Assembly (NCBI RefSeq): GCF_019924045.1
Contig: NZ_JAHXBN010000005.1
Location: forward strand, 248,001 to 312,000
Direction of reading: 5' to 3'
DNA: 64,000 nucleotides
Source of the DNA: Dyadobacter fermentans
GTDB lineage: Bacteria; Bacteroidota; Bacteroidia; Cytophagales; Spirosomataceae
This document shows positions 52,193 through 59,378 of this stretch, piece by piece. The translations under genes were made by a program, and so were the position numbers. A model generated the notes under the pieces. It did not search any database, had not been told where the DNA came from, and worked only from the letters and a program-made list of their open reading frames with translations. Every line of letters begins with the position of its first letter. The stretch's first letter is position 1.

Positions 52193-53584
52193 CTACTTTT
52201 TCGGTTCAACAGTGTTGACAAATCCGGCAATGTCGATCAGTGGAATGTTGGCGTCGTAATGCCTGTTGATCGCTTTGATGACCTCATTTGCAATAACGGC
52301 CTGTCCGAGCGCCGTGGGATAGATTCCATCAGAGGAGAAAAAATTGCCATGCGCAGTTCCATCGATTAATATGCCGTCATCTGTTCTATATCCGCCCTGA
52401 TGAATGCGTTGATAGAGGTCAAAAAGGTCAACTACCGCAAGGTCCTTTTCTGTGGCGTACTCCCTGATTTTCGCATTGTAAAAGAGCTGAGGATCGCTTT
52501 CATAGGTTTCTCCATAGTCAATTACCTCAATATCATCGAAATTAGCGGAGAACGCGCGACCTTTAAATCTTTCACAAAGTGCATGAAGTTTGGCTGTGGG
52601 AATCATCGAAAATGGCTTTAAAAAGTCTATGACCCCATCCGCAGTACCATTTCTGTCAAAAGTGATGTATGCATTTTGAAACTCTTTCATCGAATACCAA
52701 TTCATGTAAGGCAAATCCTGGTAGCGGGGAATGGTGAAAATCACGCCCTTTTTACCCCTCAGATGATAATTGATGGAATAATCAGTGATTCTACCGGAAT
52801 CCATGATCGAGCCGTTAAAAGAATAGTCGAAACCTCCGATTTGACGCGTAGTTTGAATCCCAAACATCCAGCGGTCAAAAAATTCCTCAATAACTATAAA
52901 GTTATAAGGCAGCTCATCCGGCGAGCGTCCCTTGAATCTTGAGGCAAGAAGCGTGGGTAAGTCGCAGTTTTCACATCCCCAGCCTGGAACATACCACTCC
53001 GTGCTTCCTTCAAATAGTCCGTAGTTTGAAATTTTTCCTTGGTAAAGCGGTATCGTTGACGGGATCTCAGTAGTAACGGAAATGGTATTGTTTATAACGC
53101 GGTCCCAATTCGGATAACCGCTCTCCGTGTCGCGATATATGTAATAACCCGTCCCATTGAAATGCTCTTTATCAAAAAGCGGCATCGCAAAATTGGTAAT
53201 ACCCATCTGATGGGCGAGTAAATTAGTATAATTGGTTTGCTGACTTTGTCGAGTTATACCGCCATTCATAACCCCGGCCGTCAATCCTCCGCCGAATGCC
53301 GCCATTTCCATTGCTTGTCCGGGTTTCAGGGCCCGCCCGAAATCGGCCAGCGAGACAGGTGTAGACAGCCATTCTTCTATTTTAAGTTCCGGTTGCCTGT
53401 TGACGTTGTCCTTAATCATCTCCGGATATTTGCCCATCGGATGGATGCGAGAGAAAGGACCAAGTATCTTGGCCGAATCTTCGGCCGTGGGTATGTAAAC
53501 AGGCTTTAAGGGAACGGGGTCGGGCCAGCCATTGCCAGGCTGATTGCATCCGATAAGAGCGAGCAGGAATAACATCTTTTTCAT
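52193..53584 (-). CDS. SGNH-like lipoprotein lacking catalytic residues (copy 1)
   Basis: This 463-residue lipoprotein has lipobox ALIGC (Cys at about 13). The fold seems to be SGNH/GDSL: MAAFGGGLTAGVMNGG lies where GDS-x-x-x-G is expected, and SSDGIYPTALGQAVIANEV where D-G-x-H-P-T is expected. The nucleophile Ser and its preceding Asp are replaced by Gly, and the catalytic His by Tyr. It is therefore probably a binding protein or pseudo-enzyme, unless chemistry moved elsewhere. The gene downstream of copy 2 is its close paralog. I start at 53584 to give the lipoprotein signal. Confidence 0.75.
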   Translation of the reverse strand: MKKMLFLLALIGCNQPGNGWPDPVPLKPVYIPTAEDSAKILGPFSRIHPMGKYPEMIKDNVNRQPELKIEEWLSTPVSLADFGRALKPGQAMEMAAFGGGLTAGVMNGGITRQSQQTNYTNLLAHQMGITNFAMPLFDKEHFNGTGYYIYRDTESGYPNWDRVINNTISVTTEIPSTIPLYQGKISNYGLFEGSTEWYVPGWGCENCDLPTLLASRFKGRSPDELPYNFIVIEEFFDRWMFGIQTTRQIGGFDYSFNGSIMDSGRITDYSINYHLRGKKGVIFTIPRYQDLPYMNWYSMKEFQNAYITFDRNGTADGVIDFLKPFSMIPTAKLHALCERFKGRAFSANFDDIEVIDYGETYESDPQLFYNAKIREYATEKDLAVVDLFDLYQRIHQGGYRTDDGILIDGTAHGNFFSSDGIYPTALGQAVIANEVIKAINRHYDANIPLIDIAGFVNTVEPKK

Positions 53585-53600
53585 AGCTTGTTTTATTAGG

Positions 53601-55052
53601 TTAAATGTGTAATTGACTTTTTTCAAACCCTGTCGTCCTCACAAAGCCGGCAATGTCGATCAAAGGAATCTTCGAGCCGTAATGCTTATTAATCGCCTTG
53701 ATGACTTCATTGGCAATAATGGCTTGTCCGAACGGCGTGGGATAGATGCCGTCGGACGAAAAAAAGTTACCGGAAGCGGTTCCATCCACTTCAATACCAT
53801 CATCTGTTTTGTACCCTCCCTGGTGAATGCGCTGATAGAGGTCGAAGAGATCTACCACAGCGAGGTCTTTTTCCGCCGCATATTCCCTAATCTTTCCATT
53901 ATAATGTTGCTGCGGATCGGACATGAAGGTTTCGCCCTCGTCTATTACTTCGAAATCTTCGAAATTGACCCGGAATTCTCCTCCGCGGCTGAAATTTTCG
54001 AAGAGGTGATGCAGTTTAGCTGATGGGATCATCGAAAATGGTCGTGAGGCGTCTACGATCTGATCGGCGATGCCGTTGCGATTAAAGCTGATGTAGAGTC
54101 CCCATCCTCTTTTGATTAGCTTATAGCGGGAATACCATTCCATGTACGGTAAATCCTGATACCGTGGAATGGTGAAGATTACCCCTTTCGGACGGGCTGC
54201 CAAAATGCCATTGAGTGCGTAATCAGTAATTCTGCCGGAGTTTAAAATTGAGCCGTTGAAGTCATAAACACCGATTTGGCCCGTCATTCGAATTGCTCGC
54301 ATCCACCAATCGAAAAATTCCTCAATAACGACAAAATTGTAAGGTACATCCTCCCTGATCTTGCGAAAGGCTTGGGAGGGGTACCGGGGTATATAGCGTT
54401 TGATACGAGTGAGAACGAGCTTATTCAAGCCACAACTCTCACAATCGGCGCCATGTACATACCATTCGGCGTTGCCGTCCGGCAACCCATAATTCGAGAT
54501 CTTACCAAGATACTCAGGCATCGTCGGCGGATCGCCCGGCAAAAGCGAAATGGTATTGTTCACCACCCGGTCCCACTGCGGATACCCGCTTTCCGTATCA
54601 CGATATACGTAATAACCGGTCCCATTGAAATGTTCCTTATCAAAAAGCGGCATTTCAAAATTCTTGATACCCATTTGATGCGCCAGCAAATTGGTGTAAT
54701 TGGTCTGCTGACTTTCCCGGGTAATGCCGCCGTTCATCACACCGGCCGTCAGGCCCCCTCCGAAGGCGACCATTTCCATCTCTTGCCCCGGTTTGAGAAT
54801 ACGCCCGAAATCAGCCAGCTGCGTCGGTGCAGACAGCCATTCCTCTATTCTGAGTGTCGGCTGCCGCTCGATATTGTCATGAATCATCTCCGGATAGTGC
54901 CCCATCGGGTGAATGCGCATAAAGGGCCCGTTCGTCCGGGCCGAATCTTCGGCCGTTGCGACCTCGAATGGCAGGCCGGGAACGGGGTCGGGCCAGCCGT
55001 CACTGGGTTGGTTGCAGGCGATCAAAGCGAGTAGAAACAACATTTTCTTCAT
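53601..55052 (-). CDS. SGNH-like lipoprotein lacking catalytic residues (copy 2)
   Basis: This 483-residue lipoprotein has lipobox ALIAC. It is collinear with the preceding copy: GGGLTAGVMNGGITRESQQT, NYTNLLAHQMGI, and SSDGIYPTPFGQAIIANEV are nearly identical in both. The same GGG and Y substitutions occur. Insertions account for the extra 20 residues. The gap between the two genes is 16 bases, so they are a tandem duplication in one transcript. The start is the ATG at 55052, which opens the signal peptide; the frame continues 27 codons upstream without coding character. Confidence 0.75.
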   Translation of the reverse strand: MKKMLFLLALIACNQPSDGWPDPVPGLPFEVATAEDSARTNGPFMRIHPMGHYPEMIHDNIERQPTLRIEEWLSAPTQLADFGRILKPGQEMEMVAFGGGLTAGVMNGGITRESQQTNYTNLLAHQMGIKNFEMPLFDKEHFNGTGYYVYRDTESGYPQWDRVVNNTISLLPGDPPTMPEYLGKISNYGLPDGNAEWYVHGADCESCGLNKLVLTRIKRYIPRYPSQAFRKIREDVPYNFVVIEEFFDWWMRAIRMTGQIGVYDFNGSILNSGRITDYALNGILAARPKGVIFTIPRYQDLPYMEWYSRYKLIKRGWGLYISFNRNGIADQIVDASRPFSMIPSAKLHHLFENFSRGGEFRVNFEDFEVIDEGETFMSDPQQHYNGKIREYAAEKDLAVVDLFDLYQRIHQGGYKTDDGIEVDGTASGNFFSSDGIYPTPFGQAIIANEVIKAINKHYGSKIPLIDIAGFVRTTGFEKSQLHI

Positions 55053-55314
55053 AGCTGGTTTGTTTAAAAATGAAACATGCTGCACAAATGGACTGAAATC
55101 GAACACGGAGCCGAAGCAAGCGCATACGGCCACGATGGAAGCCGATTTGTACGCCCGTTTTCGAAGGTTGAAGTCCTAGAAGAAATGTTGAGTTTTGACG
55201 AATCGAGTTACTGTTCGTCGGGTGTGGTGCAATAAAAGGTAATTTGAACGGCAAAGGCAAGCGAATGTAGTAGTAGAATGTCCGATCGGTTGACCGATGA
55301 TCAAACGGTTACAT

Positions 55315-57353: not shown

Positions 57354-58847
57354 TTAGCTGTTTTTCGACTTCGGAGCTTTTGGCAATCCGTATCGTTTTT
57401 CATGCCTTTCAATCTCATTTGCTACTATTTTCCAGTGATTCCGTACCTGCCTATTAATGGATTTCATATGGGTATCTCCCATCACGTGACCAGCATTTTT
57501 TACGTACGATATGTAATTTCCCCAAAATACTCTTCCATCAATTTTCTTTCTCTTAGCACCTAAATGAGTCTTTTTTCTAAATATTCCTGCCCTAAATATC
57601 CAGTCATCCTCTTTGACGTTTGAAAGCTTATTCTTTTCTAGCTGCACTTTTGCATAGAATGCTCTGCGACGAATCGCTCGTTTGAGACCTCGATAATATT
57701 TCGAGATACTGCTATTTCTAATTCTAATGCGACTCCCGTCAAACTCAAAGCCAAGATAGCCAATGGATTGTCCTACGGTTTGCCCCTTCGAATTTGTAGC
57801 GTTTATAGTCCAACTGTCGGTCGGTGAACTACGGGTAAGATTAGCTATGATAGTCTTGTCATCCTGTATTTTTAAGCTTAACTGCCTTTCAATAATATCT
57901 TTGACTGTTTTTATAACGTTCTCAACTTGATCTGTTGGACAAATAAGTAAAATATCGTCAGAATAGCGACGATATAGACCTTCCAAGGGAGAGGTAATTT
58001 TAAGGATTTCGATGTCCGATTGCAGAAAATATAAATTGGATAAGACTGCGCTTATTGGAGTTCCCTGAGGAATCCCTTTCTCGCCATTGTTTGATCCCCC
58101 ATATTTTCGTAGTAATTTGTTCGAGTATACTATTGACCTAAATTGTTGGAAAGAGTCAAATAGAGATGCCCTTTTTGACTTGTTGACTAAATTCAAACTT
58201 CGCTTATCAAAATCAGGTAATAACGGGATGAGTTCTTCTAAATCTATGTAATATGGCCTAGTAATCGCTTTAAAAACCTGGTAATCTTCTTTCGAAAGTA
58301 GAACCTGCTCGAACAACCGACCCCAAGCTGATTTTAGAACAGAATGATTAAGATTATCAAAGAAACTCGCTATATCAAGACACACCACAGAGATGTGATG
58401 TTCCTTATGATTCGAAATAAACTCGAAAACCTCTCTCGCGAAATCGATTGTGCATTTATTGCGACGGGCGTTGGACTGAATTGCACGATAGCCGATCACT
58501 GAGTTGCTGAGATTTATGTCCGATTCATAAATTTCTTGCAACCGTTTATTTATTTTGTCCGCGTAAAAGGCGAAAATCTGTGCATCCAAATGGTTTGCGT
58601 AATAAATAGGCCTAATTTTGACTTTATAAGCCCTTCCAATTTTACCGCTTTCTAGCTTTTTAGAGCCATCACGCTTATAACGGTGATCAACTATTTTATA
58701 GTGAAGTAACGGAGAGAAGCGGTGAATTGCAAGATTTTCACTGTCATTGACATAGGTTGTAACATAGTGTTTGGTTCTCTTTTTTGATTTGCAACCCAGT
58801 CTCGGTGAAATATGAATATAGGGTCTTAGGCGTAGCCAATCTTTCAT
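57354..58847 (-). CDS. defence-type reverse transcriptase (DRT2-like)
   Basis: This 497-residue reverse transcriptase has a special N-terminus (RPIYYANHLDAQIFAFYADK), then motif A VVCLDIASFFDNL (Asp 158), motif B GIPQGTPISAVLSNLYF (about 258-274), motif C YRRYSDDILLIC (YSDD 295-298) and LGFEFDGSRIRI. It lacks the retron VTG motif and the maturase/endonuclease parts of group II intron enzymes. It resembles the UG (unknown-group) reverse transcriptases used in phage defence. The upstream 282-nt segment with an endless-frame unit points to DRT2, in which the enzyme copies that RNA repeatedly. The family assignment is inference; the fold and active site are certain. Confidence 0.85.
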   Translation of the reverse strand: MKDWLRLRPYIHISPRLGCKSKKRTKHYVTTYVNDSENLAIHRFSPLLHYKIVDHRYKRDGSKKLESGKIGRAYKVKIRPIYYANHLDAQIFAFYADKINKRLQEIYESDINLSNSVIGYRAIQSNARRNKCTIDFAREVFEFISNHKEHHISVVCLDIASFFDNLNHSVLKSAWGRLFEQVLLSKEDYQVFKAITRPYYIDLEELIPLLPDFDKRSLNLVNKSKRASLFDSFQQFRSIVYSNKLLRKYGGSNNGEKGIPQGTPISAVLSNLYFLQSDIEILKITSPLEGLYRRYSDDILLICPTDQVENVIKTVKDIIERQLSLKIQDDKTIIANLTRSSPTDSWTINATNSKGQTVGQSIGYLGFEFDGSRIRIRNSSISKYYRGLKRAIRRRAFYAKVQLEKNKLSNVKEDDWIFRAGIFRKKTHLGAKRKKIDGRVFWGNYISYVKNAGHVMGDTHMKSINRQVRNHWKIVANEIERHEKRYGLPKAPKSKNS

Positions 58848-58870
58848 AATTCATTTGCTAGAATAAAAGT

Positions 58871-59152
58871 GTTGGTTGGTTAAAAGCGACGCTATCCTTT
58901 ATTCATGATCTGAATGCAGCCAGTTCGTGTCATAACGCCCATGAAGGGCACGTCTTTTGGAACATGAACTTTGTTACACATATGAACACCCAGATCAACC
59001 TGAGCACCATGATAACCGTTTCACTTTATTTCATAATGGGCGCTCCAACGTGGAACCCGAATGATATAAGTACCACCTATCACATTTGATAGGGTATCTT
59101 CAACCTAAGGTGAAGTAACTCAAACACTGTACTGCGGACTTAACCAACCAAC
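58871..59152 (-). ncRNA. putative template ncRNA of the reverse transcriptase
   Basis: This 282-nt stretch begins and ends with a perfect 13-bp inverted repeat (GTTGGTTGGTTAA / TTAACCAACCAAC), which would close the RNA. Its 3' end is 23 bases before the RT start codon. Inner stems visible are CCTATCA/TGATAGG (59076-59093) and CGCCCAT/ATGGGCG (58936-58942 with 59036-59042). No normal gene fits here. Length and position agree with known DRT2 ncRNAs. A TAATTTG at 59157-59163 (minus sense), just ahead of the stem, could be part of its promoter. Confidence 0.65.
58962..59081 (+). other. predicted rolling-copy unit with endless open frame (neo-like)
   Basis: ACA at 58962-58964 and ACA at 59082-59084 are exactly 120 bases apart. 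Joining the second to the first gives a repeat unit of 40 codons with no stop on this strand. Its first residues are MNFVTHMNTQ, and its middle is LSTMITVSLYFIMGAP. All other five frames of the unit contain stops. In-frame ATGs stand at 58964, 58982, 59009 and 59036. As encoded in the chromosome the frame is open from 58862 to 59086. Whether this strand is the one translated is inferred from the open frame alone. Confidence 0.55.
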
Positions 59153-59176
59153 GTCGCAAATTACGAACTAGTTTAT

Positions 59177-59199
59177 GTGGTTTAAATAACTAAAACCAC
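59177..59199. promoter_or_regulatory. inverted repeat upstream of the ncRNA
   Basis: GTGGTTT and AAACCAC flank a 9-base AT spacer, about 25 bases before the first base of the putative ncRNA. It could be a regulator site for the ncRNA promoter. Confidence 0.35.
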
Positions 59200-59279
59200 A
59201 AGAAATACAGGTTTCACCCCAAATTTGCTTTATTCAACAAAACTTCCGAATATTCCCCCTCCCAACAAATACGTGTAAA

Positions 59280-59363
59280 ATGAAAAATCTCAGAAGTATT
59301 GCCCTGTTATGGTGTGGATCAGGTGAAAGCCCCAAGGCGCTTACACGAGCGCGGGACACCTAA
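59280..59363 (+). CDS. 27-residue leader peptide candidate
   Basis: The ATG at 59280 opens 27 codons (KNLRSIALLWCGSGESP, then KALTRARDT) ending in TAA at 59361. The 23 bases up to and including its ATG are nearly identical (3 changes) to those of the 80-residue gene at 59407, sharing AAATACGTGTA. The peptide frame runs through a terminator-like hairpin. This suggests translation-dependent control of the next gene, but no codon run shows what is sensed. Confidence 0.35.
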   Translation: MKNLRSIALLWCGSGESPKALTRARDT

Positions 59364-59378
59364 GACAGGGCATTTTTT
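59300..59378 (+). terminator. branched hairpin with U-tract (attenuator-like RNA)
   Basis: TGCCCTGT (59300) pairs with ACAGGGCA (59365), GGTGT (59311) with ACACC (59356), and GCGCT (59337) with AGCGC (59348). Six T follow. It stands 29 bases ahead of the ATG at 59407. The structure would stop transcription unless disturbed by ribosomes or a ligand. Confidence 0.6.

Follow-up and report, generated by a model that had tools for sequence, protein, structure and literature searches.

The window analysed here, a 64,000-nt stretch of Dyadobacter fermentans DNA, holds a reverse transcriptase (RT) gene with a gene-free space upstream of it, and the question that this locus raises is whether the two make up a DRT2-type system and, if they do, which stretch of RNA would be copied and what the copies would encode. 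In DRT2 as published, the RNA strand carries two motifs, ACA-1 and ACA-2, and the template between them is copied into its reverse complement; the length of this template is divisible by three in the 42 close orthologues studied (PMC12039810, PMC11100668). For more divergent DRT2 clades, the published survey describes the RNA as predictable and the annotation of Neo, the endless repeat protein, as more challenging, and it suggests alternative mechanisms (PMC11100668).

The RT gene lies at positions 57354 to 58847 on the minus strand, encodes 497 aa and is single-copy in its Dyadobacter genome. The residues by which it was first recognised (D158, PQG and YSDD) are all present, and across 52 aligned relatives their columns are invariant, with P260 nearly so. 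The best PADLOC model for the RT is Drt2 (2e-118), followed among other families by RT_UG17 (1.6e-24), with the DRT9 model at 2.8e-14; UG17 is the family described as DRT10 (PMC12483538, PMC12632851). The NCBIfam Drt2 model matches at 2.9e-95 with 319.9 bits, which is under its curated cut-off of 390, and since NCBI's own definition of Drt2 asks for a score above that cut-off, the window RT falls outside it; a relative, P0019, carries the name Drt2 in NCBI. A comparison with solved PDB chains retrieved three strong matches (3.8e-47 to 6.3e-45), all of them DRT2 chains, one of which is deposited only as an RNA-dependent DNA polymerase, and the next match stood at 9.2e-5. An AlphaFold2 model of the RT built from 52 sequences (mean pLDDT 88.3) is nearest to 9c0i, with a TM-score of 0.90 on the target, and the next fold, that of DRT9, reaches 0.47. 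Retron, group II intron and DGR folds rank far under 9c0i, the group II model gives 71.7 bits where its cut-off is 300, and the retron models score 24-44 bits below their cut-offs; the RT is thus not closest to any of these families. With a best profile match and a best structure match that are both DRT2, the RT is, almost beyond doubt, a member of the DRT2 family in the broad sense, and the proposal of a Bacteroidota DRT2-like system is borne out by profile, sequence and predicted fold alike.

Judged by sequence, the RT sits in a Bacteroidota clade separate from the canonical Klebsiella-type clade. Among the best 120 of 651 proteins considered, P0001-P0061 are 38-98% identical to the RT, after which the score falls from 332 to 270 bits, and the named members of this group come from Dyadobacter, Emticicia, Haliscomenobacter, Salmonirosea and Saprospiraceae; one of them, P0059 (Salmonirosea aquatica), is annotated as a 407-aa piece. 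In a tree of 42 rows, where the window's clade is represented by L018-L021 and the window's own row is absent, that clade has a support of 100/100, and seven canonical or canonical-like DRT2 rows separate with 100/98. Genomes of the same family contain an RT relative at E <= 1e-40 in 17 of 222 cases, six of which (the window's included) are 46-100% identical and 11 of which are 32-37% identical. At stricter cut-offs, and with the window's own genome counted each time, relatives were found in 4 of 395 genomes of the phylum, in 6 of 390 of the order and, with P0050 as the query, in 1 of 395 of the class. Viral contigs gave no RT relative by single-protein query and two at 28-29% by alignment query, and plasmids and phages gave relatives only below 60% identity. 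The relative L006, with an RT about 46% identical to the window's, has an in-frame TAA in its RT gene (1501-2982) despite a conserved RNA, and this may be a broken gene or a sequencing error. Searches of the open-licence literature brought up no article about DRT2 from Bacteroidota.

The flank upstream of the cassette, from about position 59243 outward, is common to L042-L045 and L048 at 80-86% (76% for one L043 piece); these come from Dyadobacter genomes in which the family search gave no RT relative, except for one at 35% elsewhere in L043's genome. Beyond this common flank the DNA that follows differs, by eye, in each of the five, and the cassette therefore seems to be placed in a variable site, likely a defence site. 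The loci L018 and L019 have the same site and the same neighbours on both sides, except for a UDG-like gene, and L020 and L021 have only the cassette in common with the window. PADLOC found no match in eight neighbouring ORFs, and it is from the DRT2 family that we infer a role of the cassette in phage defence. Just upstream of the cassette, Rfam places a c4-2 RNA (54.1 bits) at 59298-59376 on the plus strand. Elsewhere in the window, two adjacent minus-strand ORFs (52193-53626 and 53601-55133) encode similar proteins and are apparently a tandem duplication.

The space ahead of the RT spans 451 bp (58848-59298) and contains no ORF of at least 60 aa, in agreement with the gene-free 450 bp first noted. 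A region upstream of the RT is alignable in six homologues (hereafter clade A), which represent only three lineages, and alignment and covariation predict there a noncoding RNA of about 282 nt on the minus strand (58871-59152) with handle hairpins, the template and a 3' domain. The boundaries originally proposed for this RNA were nearly right, 59152 being the first base of a closing stem. In this stem, GTTGGTTGGTTAA in the 5' arm (59140-59152) pairs with TTAACCAACCAAC in the 3' arm (58871-58883) over 13 pairs, and 0 of 200 shuffles were as good; in L006 the stem is formed by GTCGATTAGCTAA with TTAGCTAATCGAC, with 4 of the 13 pairs differing on both sides. The predicted structure comprises 54 named pairs, for which 96.3% of cells are paired across the six homologues, and its minimum free energy z-score is -2.34. 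Seven pairs are changed on both sides, a count that 0 of 500 shuffles reach and that stands at 1-4 in slid versions, a slide control that is flattered because the structure was derived from the same sequences; the count of further pair types is not above that of shuffles, 468 of 500 of which reach it. The DRT2 mechanism calls for a folded RNA directly ahead of the RT gene, and alignment and covariation predict one there. The locus is a two-part DRT2-type cassette of RT and upstream RNA that lies outside the canonical group. That the conserved region would fold as an RNA whose two ends pair is, on this modelling, nearly certain.

The end-to-end stem was also sought in other loci, and a locus passed if no more than 2 of 200 shuffles did equally well. 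All six clade A loci passed, as did all three of a sister clade (clade B) and L015, L022, L026 and L034, and L008-L013, L023 and L024 failed (12-147 of 200 shuffles as good). In seven canonical or canonical-like loci the stem was not significant either (51-186 of 200). An RNA model, R1, turned up no new members: over 29 sources its matches at E under 0.01 were limited to the window, L002 and L006, which had all served as training sequences, and over 296 genomes three matches reached E <= 0.01, one in the window's own genome and two others that were weak and partial (18-20 bits).

To place the ends of the template, we screened for direct repeats of at least 3 nt that are present in all six homologues and 60-230 columns apart. 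TTCC alone gave lengths that are multiples of three, together with an antisense frame that never stops, in 6/6; among the conserved direct repeats only AAAG is as long, and AAAG fails. Both copies are kept in all six homologues and lie on the minus strand: TTCC-1 (59052-59055) is the predicted 5' end of the template, and TTCC-2 (58959-58962) is the predicted landing site just 3' of it. The template predicted between them (58963-59055, minus strand) is 93 nt long in five homologues and 99 nt in L006. Its sole indel is one of 6 nt, and the indels in the flanks are mostly not multiples of three. Compared with L006 the template is the least conserved part of the RNA, and compared with L004 its conservation is 0.80, not the lowest (5' part 0.78). 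The chance of finding a qualifying repeat is about 1 in 20 for the two conserved 4-nt repeats and about 3 in 10 if thirteen further 3-nt repeats are also counted. Searching one sequence at a time was uninformative, the GTTCCA (6 nt) of L001 not being its longest repeat. ACA pairs on the RNA strand were tried as template ends and dropped, as none is conserved in the homologues (L002 has a single one, at 199 nt), and a template of the canonical kind, bounded by ACA-1 and ACA-2 on the RNA strand, was not found. As a control, the published ACA rule was tried on four canonical loci: in L036 and L037 it marked out 105 and 117 nt, both open, and in L030 and L031 it gave no pair.

These comparisons of homologues make it somewhat probable that the template ends at TTCC. 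The alternative that survives best is a neo from the same region and frame with ends other than TTCC, set by the structure of the RNA and not by a repeat. It draws on the frame staying open well past TTCC, with 749 of 31430 windows of the aligned RNA (2.4%) combining a length that is a multiple of three with an open antisense frame in every homologue, and on the ACA rule finding no pair in two of the four canonical controls. Nevertheless, it leaves the standing of TTCC among the conserved repeats unaccounted for, and jumping as published needs matching ACA motifs (PMC12039810, PMC11100668), so we consider it rather unlikely, if a serious contender.

The predicted neo frame (58964-59053, plus strand) has 30 codons, with codon 31 lying across the junction 59055/58963, and encodes the unit MNFVTHMNTQINLSTMITVSLYFIMGAPTWN, whose L006 counterpart is NNCVTIMNILPEVFTMLTATIELVTAVVLTERN. 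Given TTCC ends, it is endless with a unit divisible by three in 6/6 homologues, which holds for no other frame; another frame stays open in five homologues and is stopped in L006, and its window version is strongly hydrophilic (-1.56). GRAVY for the chosen frame is 0.47 in the window and 0.45-0.98 in clade A, compared with 0.82 and 0.69 for two E. coli control units. Set against random-codon peptides, no more than two of five clade A units are hydrophobic at the 5% level, and 3.9% of the open frames in shuffles of the window unit are equally hydrophobic. Changes relative to L004 fall at codon third positions in 9-11 of 19-21 cases, slightly favouring the chosen frame, and those relative to L006 (14 of 45) lend it no support. 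We consider the plus strand and this frame likely to be correct for Neo. The repeat protein first proposed agrees with this prediction in its strand, its start at MNFVTHMNTQ and its first 31 of 40 residues, and its last nine (PNDISTTYH) lie outside the TTCC-bounded template.

In the mechanism that we propose, the RT would copy the 93-nt stretch of the minus-strand RNA from 59055 to 58963 repeatedly, likely jumping from the TTCC at the template end back to the TTCC at its start, and the product would be a tandem-repeat gene that is read from the plus strand as an endless and probably toxic protein built of a 31-residue repeat. The steps around this, from triggering by phage through priming at the RNA 3' end and synthesis of a second strand to transcription over the junction, translation and finally abortive infection, come from published DRT2 and would apply by analogy. 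As a whole, the reading of a DRT2-type cassette whose TTCC-bounded 93-nt template yields such a protein is the one that we favour, with a fair margin of doubt; it draws on the RT family, the covarying RNA, the stop-free frame in 6/6 and the length divisible by three, and on TTCC ends suggested by the homologues. Counting against it are a junction promoter that went unrecognised, weak codon evidence, hydrophobicity that stays within the range of random-codon peptides in three of five units, the chance of a qualifying repeat, the in-frame stop in the RT gene of L006 and the small number of lineages behind the six homologues.

A DRT2-like RT might instead make repetitive cDNA that codes for no protein, the DNA itself acting. 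This would suit the weak codon signal and the outcome of a promoter scan, in which no junction promoter was recognised in the six units: a Bacteroidota -7 box with one mismatch, 3 nt past the junction, was seen in two and was absent in four (the consensus scan covered the -7 box, and the -33 region was judged by eye). The related DRT9 is described as producing a homopolymer that has no coding function, and the part that DRT10 repeats play in immunity as unclear (PMC12483538, PMC12632851). The template length divisible by three, the 6-nt indel, the frame endless in 6/6 and the hydrophobic bias speak against it, and we think it improbable.

The reading first put forward, a canonical DRT2 with plus-strand ACA ends at 58962 and 59082, a 120-nt unit and a 40-residue Neo, has the two motifs exactly 120 nt apart as claimed, exactly one endless frame of six in the 120-nt circle and a Klebsiella repeat length that is also given as 120 nt, and it is nevertheless very nearly dismissed, as an endless frame occurs in 41% of 5000 shuffles (at least one each), the pair is found in only 3/6 homologues and on the wrong strand (it reads TGT on the RNA strand, where the published ACA-1 and ACA-2 themselves lie), and the spacing, whose divisibility by three in relatives the original prediction had made its own yardstick, reaches 128 nt in L006 against 120 nt in the other five homologues, which refutes the 120-nt unit; the homologues point to 93 nt and 31 residues.

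With the TTCC-bounded reading in place, the cassette can be set beside known systems. As far as the Klebsiella pneumoniae DRT2 (UG2) is described in PMC12039810 and PMC11100668, the window shares with it the RT family and fold, an upstream RNA of about 280 nt and, as predicted, an antisense-copied template with a length divisible by three and an endless hydrophobic frame. In contrast to it, the window RT is about 70 residues longer and belongs to a separate clade, the RNA has an end-to-end closing stem, the predicted repeat is TTCC and not ACA, the unit is 93-99 nt against 111-129 nt, and no junction promoter was recognised in the units. The E. coli DRT2 loci L036 and L037 likewise have an endless antisense frame between repeats and a hydrophobic unit, but they differ from the window in their ACA ends, their units of 105 or 117 nt and their lack of a significant closing stem. 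With DRT9 and DRT10, as those are described (PMC12483538, PMC12632851), the system would share a Class 2 RT that copies an RNA template into repetitive DNA; the profile comparison given above sets its RT apart from both, and the fold comparison sets it apart from DRT9.

Clade B (L007, L014 and L025) fits the same rule. In 3/3 of its loci the 6-nt AATTTC recurs 141 nt apart around an endless hydrophobic frame; by chance alone 9.7% of windows there would do as well, and changes in the three sequences are not biased by codon position. Two copies of the 8-nt repeat TTTCATTA lie 102 nt from each other upstream of the RT in L022 alone and bound an antisense frame that is open and hydrophobic, a further candidate neo. 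A further clade (clade C) does not fit the rule: no common end repeat was found in it, and the lengths between fixed flanks are equal modulo three in L010, L011 and L012 and not in L009. The RT DNA of L011 and L012 is 99.1% identical and their RNA flanks are nearly so, and their templates, the stretch between a conserved 5' hairpin and GTGACTCAAG, bear no clear resemblance to each other, one being 39 nt longer. The templates of L009 and L010 look likewise dissimilar and unequal in length, with RT DNA 87.5% identical and conserved RNA flanks. Each pair gives the impression that one Neo cassette has been exchanged for another.

For this one divergent DRT2 clade, the locus offers a concrete prediction: TTCC, 93 nt, and a named frame and junction. 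If this prediction is right, ACA would be one solution among several, and hidden endless genes could be searched for by the rule of a conserved direct repeat that is spaced by a multiple of three and bounds an endless antisense frame. More tentatively, and with the balance somewhat against us, we suggest that the Bacteroidota DRT2 systems form separate branches with end-closed RNAs, in which clade-specific jump repeats (TTCC, AATTTC) would free the length of Neo (31, 33 or 47 residues), and that a further clade would swap the whole template, cassette-like, between near-identical systems, so that one defence enzyme could be armed with unrelated endless proteins.
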